This document shows positions 988 through 19,926 of a stretch of DNA of 33,801 nt, piece by piece. Source of the stretch: an uncultured Saprospiraceae bacterium (lineage in GTDB: Bacteria; Bacteroidota; Bacteroidia; Chitinophagales; Saprospiraceae); contig CALBWK010000214.1 of the NCBI GenBank assembly GCA_937969415.1, positions 1 through 33,801 on the forward strand, written 5' to 3'. The notes beneath the pieces were generated by a model. It did not search any database. It was given only the letters and a program-made list of their open reading frames with translations, and was not told the DNA's origin. Numbering within the stretch: position 1 is the stretch's first letter; the number at the start of each line of letters is the position of its first letter. The position numbers and the translations under genes are program-made.

Positions 988-3183
988 TTAAACAGTTATT
1001 TTACCTTTTAGCCACCATCCGAACCACAAAAGTAATAAGGATATAAGAATTAATGGCAAGCGCCAAGCACTTACTGACTCTGAGGTAGCCTCAACAGTCT
1101 CCTCAAGGACTTGGATTTTGATAGGGTCAGTGGTGTATTTGACGCCATAGACATCATCAACATACTTCGCTACAAGCGTATAATGGCCTCCAACTAAAGT
1201 TTCAAATAGGTACTCACCACTATTGCTCCATTCAGAACTGTTTTCTCCTTCATAATTAAGATGATAGGAGTATTTAGCTTTATTATCGTAATAGTTAGTC
1301 GAGGCAAAGTTGAGCTTAAGCGGTAGGTCCTTTTTCATTACTTTAAATACACCATCTTCTCTAACTAGTTGCCTACCCCCTTCTGTAGTCGCATAGACTA
1401 AGTCCATTTGGTCCATAATGCTTGAAATCGAACCATTGAGATCTACATCTATAAGGTTATTATTACTTGCTATGACAAGTTTATCACCACTGACGTTATA
1501 TAGTCTAGCTTGTTCCATTTTCTGATGAAGCGGCAGAACTCTAGTTATAATTTTCTCACCATTAAGGGCTTTTCCTTTATCGAGTGCCACTAAGGATCTA
1601 GGCGTAAGCAGCCATATATCATCTTGCTTTTCTGCGATATCTAAGATCGTTACCGGTGCCATATTAATCATCGATACGAGGTTATTCTCCATATCTATTA
1701 CTACAAGTCCCTTATGTGTAAACGTGACAAGTCGCCCATAGGAAGCAAACTGATTTTGCGAAAAGGGATATCCTTCGCGATGATGGGCTGGCAATACTGT
1801 TTCTAAACGACTTTTTGTCAATGAATAAATTGCATTTTCACTGAATACATAATCTCTACTATCTGAGATTTGCTTATAAAAAACCTCTTTATCCACATTA
1901 ATCATTGTGTAGCCTATCTTATCCTTTCTGTACAATCCATCCGTTGTCAAATGAAATTCTTGGCCATCAGCATAGCTTACATCTAACAGATTGGTTTTTT
2001 CACTTTTGATTCGCTTGAGTACTTGGGCACTATCTGAGGCTATTACAAGACCTTGTCCATTAGAGAATAGCAGCTTTACCTTGTTATCTTCAGTGACAAT
2101 ATGTTCTGGTGCTTTCTTTCCTTTATGTTTTTCCCATATTTGTTTTTCGGGATTGTAACCATATACTGAAGTACCATCGGAGTAGTACCTGTTGTTTCTT
2201 ACCTCATAATATTTTACTGGAGATTCCTGCTTTTCATTTACAAGCGCTTGTTGGCTGTAGGCCTGTTGTGGCAAGATATGTATAGACTCTTCAGATAAAA
2301 CCATCAAGCTCTTATCCTCTCTTACAGTCATCTTTAGCAAGTTTTCGTAATCAGAAACTGGCAAGGATATTTTCTCGGACTTTAGTTCTGGTGAAATTTT
2401 AATAAGAGCATCTTTGGTAAGGCAGTAAATGATATCTCCATCTACAACAATCTGTTCTACAGCTTCTTGTGTATATTCTGATAAATCAAGTTGAAATTCA
2501 CCTATTGAAGAAATACCACCATAATGCCCAACATAAACACCTGTACTACCATTCCGACAAAGAGTTGTACAGGCATCACTTAACAAGCCAGTACTTTGAC
2601 GATACTCTTTAATTAAAATCTCTGACTGGCCCATTGGCTTTTCGAAACTTACCAACCCGTGATCTGCTGTTGCCAACCATACGACCTGCTGGTAGACAAA
2701 TCCATCCGTATAAGTATAGTCTTCAGGATTATATTGGTGAAAGAACTTGAATGCTAAATGGTGTTCCTCCTTAGTTTTGAAATATATTTTATCTGAAATT
2801 TTCCAGCTATCTCCATTAGCGAACTTCAGATAAATTCCCTTTTTGACCCGGTCGAGTATATCTAAATGCCCATCCTTACTCAAGTGCGCCATATACCCAT
2901 TATCTAGAGGGTATAGAATAGGCTGATCATAGCCACATTGTATTCTGTTCTCTAACAGTGTAGAATCAAGAGCCGTGATTAACAATGCTTCTTTCTGATT
3001 CAGGATATAGCTCCCCTGTGTTGTCACTAATACCGTCTGGCCACTATCTGTAATATAAAAATCCAAGTAATGACCATCTACTACAGGTTGGAAGCTAATC
3101 GATTGCCCTACGACTATACTGAATTGCAAGCTAGCGCCCACAAAAACAATCAGTGTGTACAGGAAAAGGCAAATCCGAGTCAT
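988..3183 (-). CDS. propeller/Y_Y_Y receptor-like protein without output domain
   Basis: This 731-residue protein begins with a signal peptide (about 1-26). It then has a long beta-rich region with recurring short 'xxDGxVYQQVVWLATADHGLVSF' type blades (residues about 30-620; condensed), as in two-component regulator propellers. Residues 632-700 resemble a Y_Y_Y domain, with YSYHLNYEGENSSEWS followed by GGHYTLVAKY. A single membrane segment (708-726) is followed by only five or six residues. Full-length relatives continue into a histidine kinase, LuxR/LytTR or adenylate-cyclase domain. Here nothing follows, and the next gene starts 58 bp on, leaving no room for a frameshifted remnant. It could sense an extracellular ligand and signal through a partner, or be a decayed receptor. 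The assignment rests on fold-level pattern only. Confidence 0.6.
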   Translation of the reverse strand: MTRICLFLYTLIVFVGASLQFSIVVGQSISFQPVVDGHYLDFYITDSGQTVLVTTQGSYILNQKEALLITALDSTLLENRIQCGYDQPILYPLDNGYMAHLSKDGHLDILDRVKKGIYLKFANGDSWKISDKIYFKTKEEHHLAFKFFHQYNPEDYTYTDGFVYQQVVWLATADHGLVSFEKPMGQSEILIKEYRQSTGLLSDACTTLCRNGSTGVYVGHYGGISSIGEFQLDLSEYTQEAVEQIVVDGDIIYCLTKDALIKISPELKSEKISLPVSDYENLLKMTVREDKSLMVLSEESIHILPQQAYSQQALVNEKQESPVKYYEVRNNRYYSDGTSVYGYNPEKQIWEKHKGKKAPEHIVTEDNKVKLLFSNGQGLVIASDSAQVLKRIKSEKTNLLDVSYADGQEFHLTTDGLYRKDKIGYTMINVDKEVFYKQISDSRDYVFSENAIYSLTKSRLETVLPAHHREGYPFSQNQFASYGRLVTFTHKGLVVIDMENNLVSMINMAPVTILDIAEKQDDIWLLTPRSLVALDKGKALNGEKIITRVLPLHQKMEQARLYNVSGDKLVIASNNNLIDVDLNGSISSIMDQMDLVYATTEGGRQLVREDGVFKVMKKDLPLKLNFASTNYYDNKAKYSYHLNYEGENSSEWSNSGEYLFETLVGGHYTLVAKYVDDVYGVKYTTDPIKIQVLEETVEATSESVSAWRLPLILISLLLLWFGWWLKGKITV

Positions 3184-3413
3184 CCTTACTTACAAATCAA
3201 AGAATATACCAAGTCACCTTATAAATTAAGTAGCGTAAAGTAGATGTCGTTTGTGATTAATTATGGAAGATCGATGTATCTGAGAGCAAACTTTGGAAAA
3301 GGTTAAAGAATCCTCTTTCAAAAGCGCTTGGTTATAGCTCTCTAGGCTATCTGGATCCGAAATTTCATCTAGAGCAAGTCCATCGTAGAGATGAAAATTA
3401 GCTTATGTCAGCT

Positions 3414-4076
3414 TTAAAATCTAAGGTCTTCAATATGGACGCCTTCATATTGAGAAGAATCAAAAGTGAAGGTGCTCTTATTGGCCTCATAAGCCTCTAC
3501 CCCCGAGATGGTTAATGTATGTCGAGAACCGTCTTTCATAAATATCTTGAGGTGATGAACTTGATTGGTTTTACTGAATACTGCCAATCGCATTTTAGCA
3601 TAATCTGCAAAGTCATCTGTAGGCTTACACTCGATATAAGTTACATCCTGGTCATCCTCTTTTCCATACTGCGTGATGGCAAAAATCAGTTGATCAGACT
3701 CATCCAACTTAAAAATATCAGATGGAGACATAAAGTCTTCTGATGTCTCAAAGTCCGCATCATTAATCTGAACCTCATTAAGTTCTTCTATATACATCCA
3801 AACTTGTTCTGTATCAGAAATAATCTTTCTACCCTGCATCTCCAATACAAACTTCTCACCGGACTGAATGAGCATCCCTGGCTGGGTCTCCTTAGCTTGT
3901 CCAGGAAACTCCATTTCAAGTGCAAAATCAATCTTCTTTGCGGAGTCCGTCAGATAATTTTTCTTAATTGTCTTGAGTAGGGCTAGTGCATCTGGATCAG
4001 ATTGCTCTGCGACATCTTGCGCTTGTGCCGTAAAAATCAAACTGCTACATAATAGGAAGAGTAAGTAGTGTCGCAT
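3414..4076 (-). CDS. lolA: LolA-like outer-membrane lipoprotein carrier protein
   Basis: The product is 220 residues with a signal peptide (1-20, ...FTAQAQ), so it is periplasmic. The body matches LolA-type proteins: 'ALLKTIKKNYLTDSAKKIDFALEMEFPG' like start (condensed), then 'LIQSGEKFVLEMQGRKIISDTEQVWMYI', the usual strand pattern in which the test lipid-binding sheet reads 'xKFxLexxgxxixsDGkxxWxYx'. LolA carries lipoproteins from the inner-membrane LolCDE complex to the outer membrane. In Bacteroidota lolA often sits just downstream of ftsK. Here the same order on the minus strand is preserved but interrupted by cvpA and a small exported gene. No promoter of the TAnnTTTG type was seen directly upstream. 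Confidence 0.8.
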   Translation of the reverse strand: MRHYLLFLLCSSLIFTAQAQDVAEQSDPDALALLKTIKKNYLTDSAKKIDFALEMEFPGQAKETQPGMLIQSGEKFVLEMQGRKIISDTEQVWMYIEELNEVQINDADFETSEDFMSPSDIFKLDESDQLIFAITQYGKEDDQDVTYIECKPTDDFADYAKMRLAVFSKTNQVHHLKIFMKDGSRHTLTISGVEAYEANKSTFTFDSSQYEGVHIEDLRF

Positions 4077-10187: not shown

Positions 10188-12764
10188 ATGCCTTGGATCC
10201 TCAGAATTTTAGTGCAGTGTTTTCTTATAATCAGCCTCCCTTATCAACTTATTTCCCAGCAATCAGCACCCAATATCTTATTGATTATAGCAGATGATAT
10301 GGGCAGTGATGTGACAAATGGATTCGGCTTTGAAGGCGAAAAGCCCGTAACACCACATCTAGATGGCCTAAGAGAGTCTGGTGTTATATTTTCTAATTGC
10401 TGGGCAACTCCTCAATGCTCTCCTACACGAGCTGCCATAATCAGTGGAAAATACGGTATCAACACAGGTGTAATGCGTCCGCCTGGTCCGCTAGATCCCA
10501 TCCACACCTCTGTATTTACCAGAATCAAAGAGTTAAGTCCCTATGATTATCAAGTCGCAGCTATAGGAAAATGGCACGTCGGAGGTAATAACAATGATAA
10601 TCATCCAGCAGAAACAGGTGTCGACCATTTCGAAGGAACACTCTCTGGAGCTGTTCCTGATTATTATGACTGGACCAAAATAACCAATGGAGAATCTTCA
10701 CCCGTGACCGACTACGCTACCTCACATCTCACTGACGCTTCCATCGACTGGATAGCAGATCAAGAAGATAATCCTTGGCTTCTGTGGTTAGCCCACTTTG
10801 CGCCTCATGCCCCCTTACAAATTCCGCCGGATGGCTTATACACAACTGAACCCACCAATAATAGGACAACTTATTTCTCTATGATAGAAGCAATGGATCA
10901 CGAGATCGGCAGACTCTTAGAAAGTATGGACCAAGAGACCAGAGATAATACAATCATCTTATTTGTAGGTGACAATGGTACAACTAACTCGGGTAGTACT
11001 TTTTATCCAAGAGGCCATGTCAAGGGCTCTATCTATGAGGGCGGGCTACGCGTGCCACTTATCGCTAGCGGGAAGCTCGTAGACCGTATAGGAGAGACAG
11101 AAGCGGGCCTTGTCCAAGCAGCAGATCTACACGCTACAATTCTAGAACTGGCAGGCGTATCCCTACCAGGAGGCATAGACAACAGTCTGAGTATCAAATC
11201 TCATCTCTCCTGCGAAGGACAAGAGCTCCGAGAGATTATGTATAGCGACTATGATGATAGCAACATCTTGTTATGGGCGACACGGACTGAGCGCTATAAA
11301 CTCATAGAAGATGCAGCAGGTAATCAAGAATTCTATGATGTGATAGAGGATATTCTCGAAGAAGACAATCTAATAAATAGTCTGACACCAGAACAACAAG
11401 AAATAAAAGAAAGGCTAGAGACAGAAGCGCAGGTAATAAGAAATGGATGGTCGTGTAATGACGGCATCCAAAATGGAACTGAAACGGCCATAGATGATTG
11501 TGACAGTGACTGTGCTGAAGTTGATATATTGAGTACTGAAAACATCGGTTGTTGTGAGTCACCTTCTTTCCCTAGTGTCTTCTATGAATTTGAAGAAGGA
11601 GGTCAGCGAATGCTATACACTAACACCTATCCGAATCACGATTTCTGTTTCAACAATCAGATACCTGCCCCCAACTACAAACTGTACCGTGTGTCCCGCG
11701 AGCCAAGGGTGACTGGAGAACTCACATCGGTAACACGTGAAAATGGCAGACCTGCCAACTTTTTTGGTGTCGCACTCAATGGCATATTTATGATGCCTAC
11801 TCCTGCATTGCCTTTCGTTTTTGAAAACACTGCAACAGGAGAGTATAACTGGGATTGGGTATTCGAACCGACAGTCAATCAAGGGAGTGGTTCGGAACTC
11901 GTTTCACTAGATTGTGCTAGTGCCCATACCAACTCCAATGGCTACCATTATCACGGCAATATGTTTGAGTATGTCGAGCAGTTGCGCTCAGGAATTTCGA
12001 CAACAGATGAGGTGCCTAGTGAACCCCTCCAAGTCGGTTGGGCTTCTGATGGGTTTCCAATTATGTATAGATTTGGTCCTGACAAAGATGGCAATCTAAG
12101 AGAATTACACCCTAGCTTTCAATTGAAATCTGGCTTACGTCCTGGTGATGGCATCTCTGCGCCTTGCGGAGCATATTCTGGAAAATACTCTGCAGATTAT
12201 GAGTACATCTGTGGCAAGGGAGACCTAGACCAATGCAATGGCATCAATGTACCCATCACTCTAACAACAGTTCTAGGCCAAGAGACCTTTGAGTACTATT
12301 ATGTAGTGACTTCCGATTACCCTCAATTCTCTCGTTGTATGGTGGGGGAATTCAGCGAAGATTTCAGCAATAGTGCGCCTAGCCTTGAGGGTGAGGACCT
12401 AGACATGGATGGCTTTATAGATACTTATGATTGTGACGATACCGATCCTAACATCAACCCTCTCGCAGAGGAAATCAATAATAATGATATCGATGAGAAT
12501 TGTGATGGGCTACTTACCACTACCCTTGACCTATCTGATCAAGGCTTTGCAATACACCCTAATCCTAATTCGGGAGAATTCTGGGTAGAATTGCCAAGTC
12601 AAGGTGAATTTAATCTTAAGCTGACATCCATCTCAGGGAAAGTAATTGTCGAAAAAAACAAATCAGGTAGAGTAGAATTTAGCGATCTGAGTCTCGGCAC
12701 ATATATCCTAAGTGCCTATCGCAAAGGGCAGTTACTCGGATCTAGCAAAATTATTGTACAATGA
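10188..12764 (+). CDS. secreted sulfatase fused to YHYH, MopE-like metal-binding and T9SS sorting domains
   Basis: The protein has 858 residues. A signal peptide (about 1-23) leads into an arylsulfatase domain (about 27-415) opening with NILLIIADDMGSD. Cys77 in CSPTRA would be oxidised to formylglycine; IGKWHVGG, APHAP, GDNGT and GHVKGSIYEGG supply the other active-site groups, so it looks catalytically complete. Residues 423-442 form a cysteine spacer of the 'C-DGIQNG-E' type often seen in secreted Bacteroidota proteins. A Cys-rich YHYH domain follows (about 449-730, signature GYHYHG at 585-590). Next is a DxDxDG...DCDD...NCDG metal-binding motif like that of MopE (737-774), then a type IX sorting tail (about 785-858, starting IHPNPNSGEFWVELP). 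It should reach the cell surface or medium through T9SS. The substrate is unknown. No sulfatase-maturation enzyme or SusCD pair is visible here. The gene overlaps the next one by 4 bp. Confidence 0.88.
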   Translation: MPWILRILVQCFLIISLPYQLISQQSAPNILLIIADDMGSDVTNGFGFEGEKPVTPHLDGLRESGVIFSNCWATPQCSPTRAAIISGKYGINTGVMRPPGPLDPIHTSVFTRIKELSPYDYQVAAIGKWHVGGNNNDNHPAETGVDHFEGTLSGAVPDYYDWTKITNGESSPVTDYATSHLTDASIDWIADQEDNPWLLWLAHFAPHAPLQIPPDGLYTTEPTNNRTTYFSMIEAMDHEIGRLLESMDQETRDNTIILFVGDNGTTNSGSTFYPRGHVKGSIYEGGLRVPLIASGKLVDRIGETEAGLVQAADLHATILELAGVSLPGGIDNSLSIKSHLSCEGQELREIMYSDYDDSNILLWATRTERYKLIEDAAGNQEFYDVIEDILEEDNLINSLTPEQQEIKERLETEAQVIRNGWSCNDGIQNGTETAIDDCDSDCAEVDILSTENIGCCESPSFPSVFYEFEEGGQRMLYTNTYPNHDFCFNNQIPAPNYKLYRVSREPRVTGELTSVTRENGRPANFFGVALNGIFMMPTPALPFVFENTATGEYNWDWVFEPTVNQGSGSELVSLDCASAHTNSNGYHYHGNMFEYVEQLRSGISTTDEVPSEPLQVGWASDGFPIMYRFGPDKDGNLRELHPSFQLKSGLRPGDGISAPCGAYSGKYSADYEYICGKGDLDQCNGINVPITLTTVLGQETFEYYYVVTSDYPQFSRCMVGEFSEDFSNSAPSLEGEDLDMDGFIDTYDCDDTDPNINPLAEEINNNDIDENCDGLLTTTLDLSDQGFAIHPNPNSGEFWVELPSQGEFNLKLTSISGKVIVEKNKSGRVEFSDLSLGTYILSAYRKGQLLGSSKIIVQ

Positions 12765-13213
12765 TCAAAGTTCTCTTCTTATGGTCAATTATGCTCAGTA
12801 CCCTAGGCTATAGTCACGATGCGAGAATGGCTGTGTTCAGAATTTCGCAAACAGACAGTCAGTTACAAATTGATTTAAGTTTTGACATAGAGGACTATCA
12901 TAATTCGCTTAACTTGACAGAAGAACAGGTGACAAGCAAACAACTAGCTCAATATCTTAATGCAGTCACTGATTGGCGGATTAACGATATAGACAAAGGA
13001 AATATTCTTGTTTCTAACTTGAGTACTATAGGAGACCATTATCATGCTACCTGTACTATATCGACTTTAAAATCTATCAGTACTTTAGACATTTCTAATA
13101 GTTTCTTAACGGGTGTCAAGGGTCATTCAAATATTATCATATTGGACCTCAACGATACTTTTAGAGATTTCAGAATGCACGCAAAACGTACGTCACTAAC
13201 GGTTAGTTATTGA
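12761..13213 (+). CDS. small exported protein, DUF6702-like
   Basis: This 150-residue protein starts within the stop codon of the sulfatase gene (ATGA overlap), a sign of translational coupling. A signal peptide (about 1-18) ends before SHDARMAVFRI. The mature part is beta-rich: 'SQLQIDLSFDIEDYHNSLNL' early, then a strand with GDHYHATCTI, and a C-terminal 'SNSFLTGVKGHSNIIILDL' block. This order resembles the DUF6702 family of Bacteroidota, whose members start HPxxxSxxxI after cleavage and end with a similar 'NsLLxxxxxQxNxv' block. The match is partial, so the name is tentative. The gene context suggests a periplasmic or surface partner of the sulfatase. Confidence 0.55.
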   Translation: MIKVLFLWSIMLSTLGYSHDARMAVFRISQTDSQLQIDLSFDIEDYHNSLNLTEEQVTSKQLAQYLNAVTDWRINDIDKGNILVSNLSTIGDHYHATCTISTLKSISTLDISNSFLTGVKGHSNIIILDLNDTFRDFRMHAKRTSLTVSY

Positions 13214-13217
13214 AAAA

Positions 13218-13763
13218 ATGAAAAAGAGTATAGCGATACAAGAGACAACAACTTGGTTGACAGAAATAGTTATTGGCCTGAACTTGTGTCCATTTGCTCA
13301 TAAAGTTTATACAGAAAACAGACTAACCTTAGATGAAATAAAATACTCCGAACAGGCACTACTTGATCACACTAATGACATCATTTCAAACTTACTCAAC
13401 CCCGACTCATCTACAACAACGACACTACTTATCATCTCTGAAGGTCTCGAAGATTTCAACTTTTACTTAGACACATTGTATGCGCTGGAAGAATCACTGA
13501 AAAGTCAAGGCCTGCACGAAGAAATACAATTAGCTAGCTTTCATCCACGGTACACATTCGAAGGAGTTGATCCTACGGCCGTACAAAACTATACCAATAG
13601 AAGTCCTTACCCGATTATACATTTTCTAAAGGTGGAAGAGATGGCAGAGGCAATAAAGGCACATCCAGACACACACAGTATACCTGCAGAAAACATCAAG
13701 AAACTTAACAAACTAGGACTAGAAGCTTTACTCAAATTATATCACACCCCAAAGACTACCTAA
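13218..13763 (+). CDS. DUF1415 family protein
   Basis: The protein has 181 residues with no signal peptide. It carries the DUF1415 signatures: WLTEIVIGLNLCPFAHKVY near the start (Cys24-Pro-Phe-Ala), LASFHPRYTFEG in the middle and NYTNRSPYPIIHFLKVEEM towards the end. The function of this family is not established, though the conserved CPFA and FHP motifs suggest an enzyme. It starts 4 bp after the upstream gene and is probably the last cistron of the sulfatase operon. Its stop overlaps the converging membrane-protein gene by 8 bp. Confidence 0.85.
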   Translation: MKKSIAIQETTTWLTEIVIGLNLCPFAHKVYTENRLTLDEIKYSEQALLDHTNDIISNLLNPDSSTTTTLLIISEGLEDFNFYLDTLYALEESLKSQGLHEEIQLASFHPRYTFEGVDPTAVQNYTNRSPYPIIHFLKVEEMAEAIKAHPDTHSIPAENIKKLNKLGLEALLKLYHTPKTT

Positions 13764-14960: not shown

Positions 14961-17900
14961 TCATGTAAAATTCGAGACATCAAGAGATTTACAATACCTG
15001 ATTAATCGATGGTAACAGGGGTTTCGTTCCAATATCTCCTTATTACCAAGTATAATAATATTCTCCTTAGCTCTCGTTAAAGCTACATTTAATTTTCTGT
15101 CTATTCCTTCTTCTGATACATTCATTATGCTTTTCAATAAGTTATGCTCATTGATAGCAAGTGATATAATTATTTGATTTCTTGATCCACCTTGATAACG
15201 TTCTACTGTATCTATAGTAACTCGATTTTCTTGCTTAAAGAAGATTTGTGATTTTATCAGAGCAATCTGAGACCGAAAGGGTGTTATTACGCCGATACAA
15301 TTCCCATCTAAGGTTTGATTATTATAGGCATATATGTCCACCCATATTTGAGTAAGCTTTGCCACTAGCTCAGCTTCGAGAGCATTTGTCTTACTTGTCA
15401 AAGTAGGATCTACAGGAACATCAATGAAAATCATCCTATTGTGGACGAGCCACTCCTGCTGTTGTGTCTCACAACTTAATTGAGGCTCATTGACCAAGCG
15501 ATCCATACCTGGTAGTACCTTAAGTTTAGATTCATAGAATTCAGGACTTATAAACTCTAAAATATCCTTATGCATCCTTCCTTGATGACTGAGACCTCCA
15601 TAGGACCAAGTCCACTTATTCTTGACAGCGTTGTGATACAATCTTTCAAAAAGGGAAATTCTCCTATCCTTAATTCCGAGCTCAGATAATCCAGTATCAG
15701 TAATAATACTTTGATTGCTCGGCTGGGTAACGACTGCGGGTAGCTGCTTATGGTCTCCTATCAATATGGATTTCTTAAATTGCTTCAGTAGACCCACCAG
15801 CATTGGCTCTAGTAATTGCGAGGCCTCATCAATTATGGCAACATCAAACTGTTTTAGCTGCTTCATCTCTCTTTTGCCTTGGTAAGAAGATACCGTTGAG
15901 ACTATCACCCTTGAATTCCGAAATAAATCTAAGATTTCTTGCCTTGTCTTAATGCTCTCGGTTCTAGTGGAAAGAAGTTGCGGTACATACTTCTTTCCTG
16001 TAGAGTGACGTGAGCCTATACGCAGATAATTACCATCTAGCAAGTCGTGTATTGCAGAACAAATTTCATCCACTGCCCTATTGGTATAAGCCAGCAGAAG
16101 AATATCAGAGGAAGTGTGAGCTATGTAATAGCCGACTAAGTTTTTTATCATCACACTCGTCTTGCCGGTACCGGGGGGACCCCACATCAAGAAATAATCC
16201 TGAGCTGATATAGCATCACGCATAACTCTCACCTGCTCACGTGTCATATCTACATTATCATAAGTAATTAGTTCTTCCGGAGGCGTCGGAGCATCAATGC
16301 CGAGCAATCTGTTCTTATATCCTTGATGAGCACTTATAAAATCAAATAAGCCATAGAATTGATGATTAAAACCTGAATCCAAAACATCTGACTCTAGATT
16401 CCAATAATCAAACCTTCTAAACAATTCAAAATTCTTTTGTCTTGCTCGCAAGCGCACAGTCACTCTATCTGTATTGATCTCGATAATCGTACATTTAAAT
16501 ATCTGGCTAGACAAAGGAGAAGGGCCTTCCTCATTTTCTGGGTAGAGCACTGTCACATCCCCTACTCTAAATTTTGACAATGTATTCGATCTATTAGTAA
16601 AACCTAGGCTGAGCAGTGGAACTTCTCTATCCGTCTCATTCTTGGTGATTTTCAAGAGAGAGAGAATACTGAATCGGTCTATCTTTTCTAGCAAAGGATC
16701 CAACCACAGAGAAGCCAGTCCATTGGATTTGTGGACACCGTGTCGTCCTATTTTGGACAACTGGAATTCTCGACTTATAAAAGCTACAAAACTTCTGTAA
16801 TACTTCTTTTCATTATCTGTAGCCTTGGAGAAAAACTCCCAGAATTTTTTAGCATCTCGACGTAGGAATCGATATTTTTCTGAGATACTATCGGGATTAA
16901 GTTTGGCTAAGAAATTATCAAACGGCGGTTCATCAATTTTTGTCAGCACTTCTTCGAGTATGACGATACTGTTTCGGAGTCGCAAGGCTTCCATTTGTTT
17001 TTGGCGCACCTTAGCCGCAAAACGTAGTCGCTTGTGATCGTCACCAGAATACAGAATATAACTTGTCGACTTTACTTTGTTATCATAGACCGACTCTATA
17101 AGTAAATCATACAAAAGGGTTTGCACATAATGATTTTGATTTAATCCATAAGCATGCGCTTTATAGACCTTGCCACTTTTAAGCTCGACTATATCAGACT
17201 TACGTGTCTCTTCGTCATAGTGATAAAGATCTAGTCTCCCTTGCAGGCCAAATTCATTAGAATAGAAACTCGGCTCTAAATAAGTTTTATCCTTAGTAAT
17301 CCCTGCATCAGCTAGTTCGGTTTTGACTACTTTTTTAAGATTAGAAAAGTGTCGCTTAACTTTATTCATCGTCTCCTTGACTGTCTTATCTTCCATAAGA
17401 GAAAACATCTCTGGACCTATTTTAAAAGTGCTTTGCATTACATCTTTAAACTCTAGATCAGGATTATGGATAAGCTCATCTAGGTACTGATTGACAATGT
17501 TCCCTACAAGCATATGGACGGTTCCTTCTGAAGGAATTAATTTCCTGCCGAAATAATTGAGTGCAGTTGTCCCATCCGATGAAAAACATTCCGAAACAGA
17601 AGTAACACCAAAAAGAAAATCGGGCCTCAGCACAAGACCTGCAGCAGTACATTCCTCATCACCTATAAAGTTGACATCGATAAGATTAACACTGATCGGC
17701 AAGGCCACATAGGTGGTAAGATTCTGGATTTGTTCGGCAAAGGACGTTGTATTAATTGTGCAGCTGTAGGTGACATCAGCTCTTTCTTCATCAATGATCG
17801 ACAAGACACCTTGACTATCAATACCCAACAACAACGCTTTAAAAACCCTCTTATAATCGGAAGGAGATCTTTGAGTCTCTTTTATTACGAGCTTCGGACG

Positions 17901-18260
17901 TGGGTATTCTGACTGCCACTCATAATCTGAAAGGTGTCTTATTACAGTCTGCATCAGGTATAGACCAAACCGTATGTGTAATACAAGATCACTGTCTAGG
18001 TAGGCTTTTTTCTCTACTTGTCTTCTGAAATAATGGCTCTCGAAGACTAATCTGCTCGGAATATCAAAACGTACACCTGAAAAAGCGATCCTACTAAATA
18101 AAGTTGTAAAGCCTATAGATTCACTTTCAGTAAGATGCTCATACATCAAAGAAAATAAGATAAATGTCTGATCCAACTCCTTGATACCCAAGGCCTCAAC
18201 CCTAGATAGCCTGATCATTTGGCGCTCCAATAACTCAAAGTAAGTTGGTCCTTCTTTCAT
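14961..18260 (-). CDS. Dna2-like nuclease-helicase (PD-(D/E)XK nuclease plus SF1 helicase)
   Basis: The protein has 1099 residues. Residues 1-200 are unrecognised. Residues about 210-445 resemble the Dna2/Cas4 branch of PD-(D/E)XK nucleases: LRPDFLFGVTSVSECF, then GRLDLYH (Asp344), IVELKSGK (Glu359, Lys361) and NHYVQTLLYDLL (Gln380, Tyr384). After a linker the SF1 (Upf1/Dna2-type) helicase follows: Walker A GPPGTGKT 694-701, DEAS 811-814, GDHKQLPA 835-842, ITPFRSQ 992-998, VERYQGG 1019-1025 and NVALTRAK 1058-1065. Relatives unwind and cut DNA 5' flaps in replication and repair; some bacterial ones belong to defence systems. Only Cys225 of the four Fe-S cysteines of classic Dna2/Cas4 has a counterpart. 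The gene stands alone, without methylase or defence neighbours. Confidence 0.85.
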   Translation of the reverse strand: MKEGPTYFELLERQMIRLSRVEALGIKELDQTFILFSLMYEHLTESESIGFTTLFSRIAFSGVRFDIPSRLVFESHYFRRQVEKKAYLDSDLVLHIRFGLYLMQTVIRHLSDYEWQSEYPRPKLVIKETQRSPSDYKRVFKALLLGIDSQGVLSIIDEERADVTYSCTINTTSFAEQIQNLTTYVALPISVNLIDVNFIGDEECTAAGLVLRPDFLFGVTSVSECFSSDGTTALNYFGRKLIPSEGTVHMLVGNIVNQYLDELIHNPDLEFKDVMQSTFKIGPEMFSLMEDKTVKETMNKVKRHFSNLKKVVKTELADAGITKDKTYLEPSFYSNEFGLQGRLDLYHYDEETRKSDIVELKSGKVYKAHAYGLNQNHYVQTLLYDLLIESVYDNKVKSTSYILYSGDDHKRLRFAAKVRQKQMEALRLRNSIVILEEVLTKIDEPPFDNFLAKLNPDSISEKYRFLRRDAKKFWEFFSKATDNEKKYYRSFVAFISREFQLSKIGRHGVHKSNGLASLWLDPLLEKIDRFSILSLLKITKNETDREVPLLSLGFTNRSNTLSKFRVGDVTVLYPENEEGPSPLSSQIFKCTIIEINTDRVTVRLRARQKNFELFRRFDYWNLESDVLDSGFNHQFYGLFDFISAHQGYKNRLLGIDAPTPPEELITYDNVDMTREQVRVMRDAISAQDYFLMWGPPGTGKTSVMIKNLVGYYIAHTSSDILLLAYTNRAVDEICSAIHDLLDGNYLRIGSRHSTGKKYVPQLLSTRTESIKTRQEILDLFRNSRVIVSTVSSYQGKREMKQLKQFDVAIIDEASQLLEPMLVGLLKQFKKSILIGDHKQLPAVVTQPSNQSIITDTGLSELGIKDRRISLFERLYHNAVKNKWTWSYGGLSHQGRMHKDILEFISPEFYESKLKVLPGMDRLVNEPQLSCETQQQEWLVHNRMIFIDVPVDPTLTSKTNALEAELVAKLTQIWVDIYAYNNQTLDGNCIGVITPFRSQIALIKSQIFFKQENRVTIDTVERYQGGSRNQIIISLAINEHNLLKSIMNVSEEGIDRKLNVALTRAKENIIILGNKEILERNPCYHRLIRYCKSLDVSNFT

Positions 18261-18474: not shown

Positions 18475-19926
18475 ATGAATTTATTGGATATGGTTAAGGA
18501 CCAGGTAACTGGCTCCTTAGGCTCTCAAGCAGCGAAGTTTCTAGGAGAATCTGAGTCTGGCGTGGGAAAAGCACTAGACGGAATTTTCCCTGTTTTATTG
18601 GGCAAGATGGCGGATACTGCTGATGATAGCAACGGCTTAGGAAAGCTGTTTGATATGGCTAAAGGTCAAGATGCGAGCATTCTTGATGACATAGGTGGTC
18701 TATTTGGCGGTGGAGCAGGCAATGTTGCTAAGCTTATGAATGGCGGATCTGGTGTTTTGAATCTATTATTGGGTAACTCAACAGGAGGCCTAATAGATAA
18801 GATTGCTGGCTTCAGTGGTCTTAAAGGATCTGCTGCTTCTTCATTGATCAAAATGGCAGCGCCATTCTTGATGTCTATGGTCGGAAGACACATCAAAAAC
18901 AAAGCACTAGATGCAGTTGGTTTTGGAAAATTCTTAGGAGAGCAAAGAGGTAATATTCAGTCTTCTATGCCACAAGGATTACTTTCTTCACTAGGAGCTG
19001 GATTCTTAGGTAAAGGTGCAAGTGCTGTTTCTGGCTTAGCTAGCGATGGTATGGATGCAGGTAAGAAAATTGTAGGTGGAGCTACTGACGCAGCTGGAAA
19101 AGTTGTAGGTGGTGCTGCTGACGCAGGCAAGAAGCTTGTAGGCGGTGTAGGCAATGTTGCTGGTAGTGCTGCTAATATGGCTGGTGATGTCGGTGGAGCT
19201 GCTGTCAAGACAGGAGGCTCTATATTGAGATGGTTAATTCCTCTTTTAATCCTATTAGGAGTCGCTGGATGGTTTGGCATAGGCCCAGGTCTAGGTGGTG
19301 CTGCAGATGCTGCTAAAGGCGCTGTAGAAAAAACCGCTGATATGGCAGGTGATGCTGCTAAAGGTGCTGCTGATATGGCAGGCGATGCGGCTAAAGGTGC
19401 TGCTGATATGGCGGGTGATGCTGCAGGTGCGGCTGGCGATGCTATGAAAGGTGCTGCTGGTGCTATCGGTGGTATGTTTGGTAAAATTGACGAGGTTGCA
19501 AAAGGCGCTCTTGATAAAATCAAATTCACTGCTGGATCTGCTGGATCTGAAATGATGAAGTTCATCGACGGCGGATTCAAAGGAGACGGAAGATTTACTT
19601 TCAAGAACCTCACATTTGCTACAGGATCTGCTAACATCGACGGTGCTACTGCTGTAGAGGTTGATAATATGGCAGCTATCCTCAAGGCTTACCCAGGTGT
19701 TAAAGTAAATGTAGAAGGCTACACTGATAACACTGGAAATGCAGATGCTAACGTACAGTTATCTCAAGCCAGAGCAAATGCTGTAAAAGCAAGATTGATG
19801 GCTAAAGGCATCAACGCTGCAAGAGTAAACACTAAAGGTTTTGGAGCTGCTAACCCAGTTGCTGATAATGGCACAGCGGAAGGTAGAGCACAGAACAGAA
19901 GAATAGAAATGGTTATAATGAAATAA
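18475..19926 (+). CDS. DUF937 / 11-mer repeat / OmpA fusion, inner-membrane protein
   Basis: This 483-residue protein has no cleavable signal. Residues about 3-150 match DUF937, whose members are Gly/Leu-rich (YidB-like) proteins of unclear role. Residues 195-248 form imperfect 11-residue repeats (AGKKIVGGATD, AGKVVGGAADA, GKKLVGGVGNV and so on). One membrane segment sits at 251-270 (LRWLIPLLILLGVAGWFGIG). A second 11-mer array follows (about 286-330, KGAADMAGDAA type; 33-bp DNA repeats). The last 110 residues (374-483) are an OmpA peptidoglycan-binding domain with the binding Asp in GYTDNTG and Arg in LSQARA. Positive charges before the segment predict DUF937 in the cytoplasm and OmpA in the periplasm. 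It is followed by a strong terminator, so it is monocistronic. Confidence 0.85.
   Translation: MNLLDMVKDQVTGSLGSQAAKFLGESESGVGKALDGIFPVLLGKMADTADDSNGLGKLFDMAKGQDASILDDIGGLFGGGAGNVAKLMNGGSGVLNLLLGNSTGGLIDKIAGFSGLKGSAASSLIKMAAPFLMSMVGRHIKNKALDAVGFGKFLGEQRGNIQSSMPQGLLSSLGAGFLGKGASAVSGLASDGMDAGKKIVGGATDAAGKVVGGAADAGKKLVGGVGNVAGSAANMAGDVGGAAVKTGGSILRWLIPLLILLGVAGWFGIGPGLGGAADAAKGAVEKTADMAGDAAKGAADMAGDAAKGAADMAGDAAGAAGDAMKGAAGAIGGMFGKIDEVAKGALDKIKFTAGSAGSEMMKFIDGGFKGDGRFTFKNLTFATGSANIDGATAVEVDNMAAILKAYPGVKVNVEGYTDNTGNADANVQLSQARANAVKARLMAKGINAARVNTKGFGAANPVADNGTAEGRAQNRRIEMVIMK
19336..19434 (+). repeat. three tandem 33-bp repeats inside the DUF937-OmpA gene
   Basis: The unit GCTGATATGGC(A/G)GG begins at 19336, 19369 and 19402, exactly 33 bp apart. 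Each copy encodes ADMAGDAAKGA. Differences are mostly silent (GGT/GGC, GCT/GCG), so the repeat is kept at protein level. Degenerate copies continue to about 19470. Confidence 0.85.

Follow-up and report, generated by a model that had tools for sequence, protein, structure and literature searches.

Proteins with a YHYH domain (PF14240) are found in phage tails, diatoms and many bacteria, and the papers found say little of them beyond one prediction. The available text of PMC7824862 predicts a Zn-dependent phage-tail hydrolase, with a Zn2+ site formed by a histidine triad and an aspartate; in the available parts of two further papers the domain is mentioned only (PMC11992049) or, for pelagiphages, mentioned only within a list of carbohydrate-binding and host-recognition domains (PMC7029224). 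Here we describe a gene in which this domain is fused to an S1 formylglycine-type sulfatase. The gene lies at 10188..12764 of a 33,801-nucleotide stretch from an uncultured Saprospiraceae bacterium (contig CALBWK010000214.1 of assembly GCA_937969415.1); this whole stretch is called the window below, and all features of the gene and of its partner are on the plus strand. The product resembles known S1 formylglycine sulfatases in the domain and the active-site residues, and differs from them in its fused second domain and in its clade, whose members tend to occur near YHYH genes. It shares with the PF14240 proteins of phage tails, diatoms and bacteria the profile, the predicted fold and the histidine triad with an aspartate set out in the available text of PMC7824862, but here the domain is joined to a sulfatase, its gene is paired with a DUF6702-type gene, and its Bacteroidota relatives are linked to copper genes.

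The paired gene (12761..13213) encodes a secreted protein of 150 residues, related to DUF6702 and the anglerases. In the available text of PMC12537917, DUF6702 is termed a metal sequesterase and the anglerases are metal-binding or transport proteins: PaDUF6702 binds Ni, Co and Cu tightly, with no significant oxidase or peroxidase activity, and in a crystal structure of RbAng-1a a Cu is held by the N-terminal His1 and an Asn. The partner protein resembles these in size, in its beta-sandwich model and in a histidine that follows an apparent signal peptide. According to the same text, known DUF6702 and Ang-1 genes lie by M1 peptidase genes or are fused to HupE/UreJ-2, whereas the partner gene overlaps the sulfatase-YHYH gene.

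The 858-residue chain was assigned from its open reading frame with Pfam and NCBIfam profiles. A Sulfatase match (PF00884) covers residues 28-324 with 149 bits against a cut-off of 25, and an SGSH_C match covers residues 281-414 with 37 bits, so that the catalytic domain with its SGSH_C part occupies residues 28-414 (10269..11429). A Cys-rich linker follows at about residues 423-455 (11454..11552), where C455 is invariant and C442 nearly so in the YHYH alignment. The YHYH match itself covers residues 500-720 (11685-12347; 113.7 bits, cut-off 25, E 1.4e-32), with the motif Y586-H587-Y588-H589 at 11943..11954. Next comes a D-rich MopE-like motif at residues 737-774 (12396..12509; NCDG at 771-774), for which the Pfam Cu-binding_MopE model gave 26.9 bits at residues 748-774, just under its cut-off of 27.0. 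The chain ends in a type A sorting domain of the type IX secretion system (T9SS) at residues 789-857 (12552..12758): the Pfam model Por_Secre_tail was just missed (26.2 bits, cut-off 27.0), but the NCBIfam model TIGR04183 was passed (26.8 bits, cut-off 23), which supports an exported sulfatase of the T9SS type. A preliminary description of this gene, made from the letters and their translation, had named the same parts in the same order, with the YHYH signature at 585-590, and each of them is present. The fused protein is the sole YHYH match at E<=0.001 in the source genome, which is 95% complete.

The sulfatase active site, claimed to be complete around Cys77 in CSPTRA, is strictly conserved. 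Among 76 aligned relatives, C77, R81, D36, D37, K128, H130 and H207 are kept in all 74 that cover these positions, and D262, N263 and K279 in 75 of 75; we presume that these residues include the metal and sulfate ligands known from other sulfatases. The C-x-P-x-R signature reads C77-S-P79-T-R81, with P79 in 69 of 74 relatives. Since the sulfatase residues are kept across the aligned relatives, the architecture is beyond chance, and the sulfatase-YHYH-T9SS chain is confirmed as genuine. Cys77 (codon 10416..10418) would be expected, from its sequence context, to be converted to formylglycine. The source genome has two PF00884 matches; one is the fused protein and the other, L003, lacks a CxPxR site and looks by eye like a phosphodiesterase, which apparently leaves the fused protein as the sole S1 sulfatase there. 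Its closest solved relatives include PDB 6bia, 9fo1 (S1_16), 6b0k (an iota-carrageenan sulfatase) and 9hh3 (S1-19), with E values from 1.5e-35 to 1.5e-39; carrageenan sulfatases are among them.

Five PF03781 matches were found in the source genome; judged by eye, one (L004) is FGE-like with a Cys pair (CNDSYC), and two (L005 and L006) are GldK/GldJ-like. FGE, which matures sulfatases, is a copper enzyme in the available text of PMC4505483 and PMC12123546, and the metal proteins of this locus might serve to supply Cu(I) to it so that Cys77 gets converted. We regard this as very improbable. As a neighbour gene FGE was rejected, with one weak 27% match to an FGE-like protein in the fetched neighbourhoods, and among 54 fetched stretches round other YHYH genes, scanned with hidden Markov models (HMMs) built from L118 and L134, a clear sulfatase lies by the YHYH gene in only six (L119, L121, L134, L146, L148 and L155; L170 holds a fragment at a contig end).

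Scanning a single genome per species with patterns taken from the fused query yielded at least 79 loci; they do not amount to a census, nor are related genomes independent of each other. The YHYH genes in these loci together with the window number 78, and 67 of them are fused to a sulfatase. Of the 11 that are not, three (L090, L096 and L105) seem to be fused copies that were interrupted or cut short. By their record titles, the hosts of the fused loci are all Bacteroidota: Saprospiraceae, Lewinella, Polaribacter, Algibacter, other Flavobacteriales, Chitinophagales and unplaced Bacteroidetes. In one of them (L072:2438-8532) two fused genes stand in tandem, with a single DUF6702-type gene between them. 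The preliminary description had raised the possibility that this architecture is common and already described. It does recur, but in the open-access literature we found no description of the fusion, no link between a YHYH domain and a sulfatase, and no link of copper to sulfatases via YHYH; subscription papers may differ.

The last 4 nt of the fused gene are also the first 4 nt of the partner gene. A partner is present in the locus for 69 of the 78 YHYH genes and within 200 bp for 67, with the identical 4-nt overlap in 32; of the nine without one, five (L075, L085, L087, L107 and L116) are on stretches that end at most 220 bp past the gene. The partner gene was no part of the locus query, and its presence therefore does not stem from how the loci were chosen, with the reservation that related genomes are not independent. 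The partner also adjoins non-fused YHYH genes (L101, L108-L112 and L114), which argues that it goes with the YHYH domain. No other neighbour behaves in this way. We collected 173 neighbour proteins of at least 150 aa from 25 of the 79 loci, excluding YHYH, sulfatase and partner genes (161, plus 12 of more than 900 aa); 150 were tallied into families and the other 23 scanned singly. The largest family has five members among the 150, and families beyond the best 25 of 186 have two at most, while the 23 scanned singly are of diverse kinds; besides the partner, no neighbour family is shared across the YHYH loci scanned.

This bears on a more conventional explanation, namely that the protein is an ordinary carbohydrate sulfatase with YHYH as its binding module and with the neighbour gene hitch-hiking. 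The listing of pelagiphage YHYH among carbohydrate-binding domains and the carrageenan sulfatases among the closest solved relatives are in keeping with it, as is one locus, L110, where a gene for a chondroitinase-B-family lyase (1151-3463; 770 aa; PF14592, 559 bits) lies directly before a YHYH gene, its partner and a convergent sulfatase. The lyase fits a sulfated polysaccharide substrate at that locus. No other gene hints directly at a substrate; here it would be a polymer of uronates, for instance dermatan sulfate or alginate, which we take to be the substrates of this lyase family. Nevertheless, we consider the explanation improbable: the partner is kept beside 67 of 78 YHYH genes where no other neighbour family exceeds five of 150 (among the best 25 of 186 families), and the YHYH domain keeps its charged residues without exception. 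The carbohydrate-related role proposed for the second module in the preliminary description thus finds little in the neighbourhoods beyond the L110 lyase. Recurring SusC/SusD, glycoside hydrolase (GH) or polysaccharide lyase (PL) neighbours were absent from the 150 tallied proteins (best 25 of 186 families), no SusC was found among the neighbours of more than 900 aa, the 23 proteins scanned one by one include a single TonB receptor (L072) besides the L110 lyase, and the seven window neighbours scanned include no SusC/SusD, GH or PL. A carbohydrate utilization locus as conserved context was not seen in the loci scanned.

We then considered what the partner protein may do. PF20420 (DUF6702) matches 57 of 62 scanned copies at E<=0.01, the best at 3.6e-19. 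In an alignment of 62 of the 68 copies found (L070, L077, L083, L090, L105 and L110 were left out), His19, Tyr65 and Asn124 are invariant, and His93 and His122 are each present in 53; in a fuller alignment His19 is present in 67 of 68 copies. His19 (codon 12815..12817) directly follows the apparent signal peptide, with the cleavage site judged by eye, and would be the N-terminal residue of the mature protein. The predicted structure is a beta-sandwich (predicted local distance difference test, pLDDT, 92.1), and its best match is 9gce, an Ang-1 domain with bound Cu (Z 11.9, rmsd 2.8, 122 aligned residues): model residues 19-150 align on residues 1-156 of the 9gce chain, so that model residue 19 falls on chain residue 1. 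ZrgA (Z 11.5, less than one Z unit away and hence tied) and PA4063 (Z 10.4) come next, and the following rows drop to Z 6. Because of the DUF6702 kinship, the N-terminal histidine and the match to Cu-bound Ang-1, the natural reading of the partner is that it would be a carrier of some metal; copper is not compelled, since Zn proteins are among the fold relatives and the preference of PaDUF6702 is for Ni. A second, canonical DUF6702 gene is present elsewhere in the source genome (C184:25093).

The YHYH domain itself is better kept than the sulfatase domain. In all 64 full-length fused proteins its identity to the window copy is the higher of the two (60.6% against 54.7% on average), which argues that it is not decoration. 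H484, D575, H580, Y586-H589, D621 and several cysteines are invariant in 72 relatives. When the set was broadened to 72 YHYH proteins of various contexts (57 non-fused and 15 of the 67 fused), D575, D621 and G622 are kept in 72, H580 in 71 and D681 in 70; these proteins were chosen by the pattern [YFHWL]H[YFW]H, so that the conservation of 586-589 is there partly by construction. Out of 139 YHYH proteins, 124 carry this pattern; the other 15 read YHHH (13), YHNH (1) or YHSH (1), all with H-x-H kept, and all eight YHYH proteins adjacent to MbnP are among them. Such conservation looks like that of an active site, and D575, H580, H587, H589, D621 and D681 are the candidate residues of a metal site.

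An AlphaFold2 model of residues 436-735 (11493..12392; model residue n is protein residue n+435) was obtained with a mean pLDDT of 92.5 and a pTM of 0.91. It shares its fold with annotated cyanophage YHYH proteins, including that of S-RIM14 (E 3.9e-12, TMq 0.62). Against the PDB, Foldseek returned no relative at E<=0.001 (best E 1.5), which does not imply that the fold is new; VIA-align 2 gave nothing at Z>=2 over 685 chains, and a profile search of PDB sequences gave nothing at E<=1. A viral scan with the YHYH alignment picked up 10 stretches, none of them confirmed, and tblastn matched 87 phage records partially and weakly (about 28% identity over 53% in 20 of the 87).

Which metal such a site might hold is suggested by the genes beside other YHYH genes. 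YHYH matches occur in 39 of 395 Bacteroidota genomes, at 60 places (71 match rows, less 11 that are further pieces of a gene already counted). SCO1 lies within 3 kb of 21 of these places, and MbnP within 4 kb of eight, where 0.23 and 0.16 would be expected from gene numbers and rounded genome sizes; together, 29 of the 60 have one or the other nearby. Among the 54 fetched stretches, the order YHYH, MORN-like protein, SCO1 is found in 19, and MbnP with an MbnH-like gene accompanies YHYH in seven (at an eighth, L120, the MbnH-like gene is at the contig end). L119 has YHYH followed by a multicopper oxidase, a redoxin and a sulfatase. In L101, from a Saprospiraceae, YHYH, a DUF6702-type gene, a sulfatase, a SIMPL-like gene (by eye), a second YHYH, a MORN-like gene and SCO1 follow one another, and in L113, from a Planctomycetota, YHYH, MORN-like, SCO1 and a sulfatase do so. 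The label MORN-like was given by eye, Pfam showing no match for the L134 copy. Homology of the partner to the MORN-like protein was not found (hhalign probability 0.8%).

The YHYH, MORN-like, SCO1 operon recurs in Bacteroidota (L133-L138, L140, L142-L151, L153, L154, L203 and L206), together with a sulfatase in L134, L146 and L148, and is not mentioned in the open-access papers found. In L118, L121, L126, L128, L155, L161 and L163 a YHYH gene with the motif YHHH (YHSH in L128) lies close to MbnP and to an MbnH-like gene for a di-haem peroxidase. In a survey of plasmids, 7 regions were opened of 12 records matched, and SCO1 is present in both YHYH regions from Persicobacter, a member of the Bacteroidota. 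On a Loktanella plasmid (L199:3230-6651), two PEBP/YbhB-type genes are flanked by two YHYH genes.

The same neighbours allow two other explanations to be weighed. In the first, YHYH would be a hydrolase that depends on zinc, in line with the phage-tail proposal, the fusion unites a sulfatase with a second hydrolase, and the copper neighbours belong to other YHYH subfamilies. The histidine triad and aspartate predicted to bind Zn2+ (available text of PMC7824862) and the Zn found in the solved structures of ZrgA and PA4063 speak for zinc, and so do the five non-Bacteroidota plasmid YHYH regions opened, all without SCO1, MbnP or an MbnH-like gene. The SCO1, MbnP and multicopper oxidase neighbours in Bacteroidota, together with the planctomycete operon L113, point to copper instead, as does the best structural match of the partner, Cu-bound anglerase, though tied with ZrgA; on balance we judge a zinc hydrolase unlikely. 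In the second, the locus would serve acquisition of copper or nickel: the surface protein captures the metal, sulfated ligands or chalkophores are stripped from it by the sulfatase, and the metal then passes to the DUF6702-type protein. This would agree with the sequestering and transport roles of DUF6702 and the anglerases (available text of PMC12537917) and with the MbnP/MbnH-like and SCO1 genes that adjoin other YHYH genes. No uptake gene is shared, however, as no family exceeds five among the 150 neighbours (best 25 of 186 families) and a single TonB receptor was seen in the 23 proteins scanned singly, and the conservation of YHYH resembles that of an active site; acquisition appears distinctly unlikely.

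We next asked how the window sulfatase relates to these neighbourhoods. With its sulfatase domain as query at E<=1e-50, and at most four candidates scored per genome, 7 of the 395 Bacteroidota genomes have a close relative, and in six of the seven this relative is at a YHYH locus. A quick tree of 49 sulfatases, supported by the Shimodaira-Hasegawa-like approximate likelihood ratio test (SH-aLRT) only, gave one clade (SH-aLRT 100) that unites 16 rows of the fused family, including L094, with eight YHYH-adjacent sulfatases, L106 and the copy of genome G242, and none of 20 background rows, which were high scorers of an earlier sulfatase scan. As the adjacent rows were picked for lying by YHYH genes, the genome test is the fairer of the two. 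The clade thus tends to travel with YHYH genes. Its members stand beside YHYH and SCO1 (L134, L146 and L113), MbnP/MbnH-like genes (L121 and L155) and the multicopper oxidase (L119). Because the fused rows nest within the clade, separate neighbouring genes are likely the older state; L101, whose genes are separate, groups with the fused rows, perhaps because a fused gene split again later. The sulfatases of L109 and L148 adjoin YHYH genes yet fall outside the clade, on long branches.

All together, these results lead us to favour, tentatively and at somewhat less than an even chance, a surface sulfatase coupled to a metal-dependent, probably copper-dependent, YHYH module that has its own metal carrier and shares one sulfated substrate with the sulfatase. 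The gene pair (10188-13213) would form a two-gene module. The large protein would be exported by the T9SS, displaying the formylglycine sulfatase and the YHYH domain at the surface, and YHYH would hold a transition metal on D575, H580, H587, H589 and D621. Copper is the most likely metal in this account because of the SCO1 and MbnP/MbnH-like genes, the multicopper oxidase and the match to Cu-bound anglerase. The co-translated partner would bind the metal in the periplasm through its N-terminal histidine and load the YHYH domain with it, either ahead of export or in its course; outside the cell, the sulfatase would strip sulfate while YHYH performs metal-dependent chemistry on the same substrate. 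The claim of the preliminary description that the second module is possibly metal-binding is plausible on these grounds, the partner histidine and the SCO1/MbnP neighbours.

Several observations weigh against this reading. Neither SCO1 nor MbnP is near 31 of the 60 Bacteroidota YHYH places, an HMM scan found no SCO1- or MbnP-like gene in the window, and the five non-Bacteroidota plasmid regions had none either. The window partner itself reaches 21.2 bits with PF20420, under the cut-off of 24, and L041, L079, L115 and the truncated L096 have no partner despite room downstream. As to copper, ZrgA and PA4063 were solved with Zn and PaDUF6702 prefers Ni; moreover, the other two histidines of PaDUF6702, the proposed ligands His28 and His32 (available text of PMC12537917), have no conserved counterpart near the matching positions of the partner (PaDUF6702 stood outside the alignment), where the only histidine, H47, is not conserved. 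Finally, the association of the sulfatase with YHYH is not strict: in G242 the two are 66 kb apart on the same contig, the L106 sulfatase of a Sumerlaeota has no YHYH within about 6 kb, a Persicobacter sulfatase close by HMM score is on a different plasmid from its YHYH operon, and L094 (5935-7509), of the fused clade, has kept the T9SS tail and lost the YHYH domain.

A wider version of the copper reading, which we hold as rather doubtful, is that the YHYH proteins of Bacteroidota, and of at least one planctomycete, would be unrecognised secreted copper enzymes with their own metal loaders (DUF6702-type, SCO1, MbnP/MbnH-like), and that in the window such an enzyme would be fused to its working sulfatase as a copper-plus-sulfatase machine for sulfated polysaccharides. 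In any case, the locus offers three handles on the function of YHYH, namely a kept partner with an N-terminal histidine, a sulfatase clade that follows YHYH, and the repeated link to SCO1 and MbnP, and it raises the possibility of copper chemistry coupled to polymer desulfation. SCO1 and MbnP-MbnH genes adjoin many related YHYH genes and several sulfatases of the clade, but the window has neither nearby.

The D-rich motif gives copper no support. The preliminary description had drawn its metal-binding proposal in part from this motif, whose sequence and Pfam name recall the surface copper proteins MopE and CorA. In MopE, the copper ligands are two histidines and a kynurenine (available text of PMC3423442), but residues 746-780 of the MopE-like stretch have no His and no Trp, and the profile score is just below the cut-off; copper binding through the motif was rejected on these grounds. 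The D-rich motif runs from residue 737 to the NCDG. We presume that it is a spacer of the Ca type rather than, as would be less likely, a site for copper.

Downstream of the pair, a DUF1415 gene (13218-13763) starts a few bases 3' of the DUF6702-type gene, and the nearest relative of the locus, L038, has the same order. Farther on, the minus strand carries a large helicase gene at 14961-18260 (Pfam AAA_11, AAA_12 and a weak Dna2 match), and at 18475-19926 an OmpA domain is joined to DUF937.

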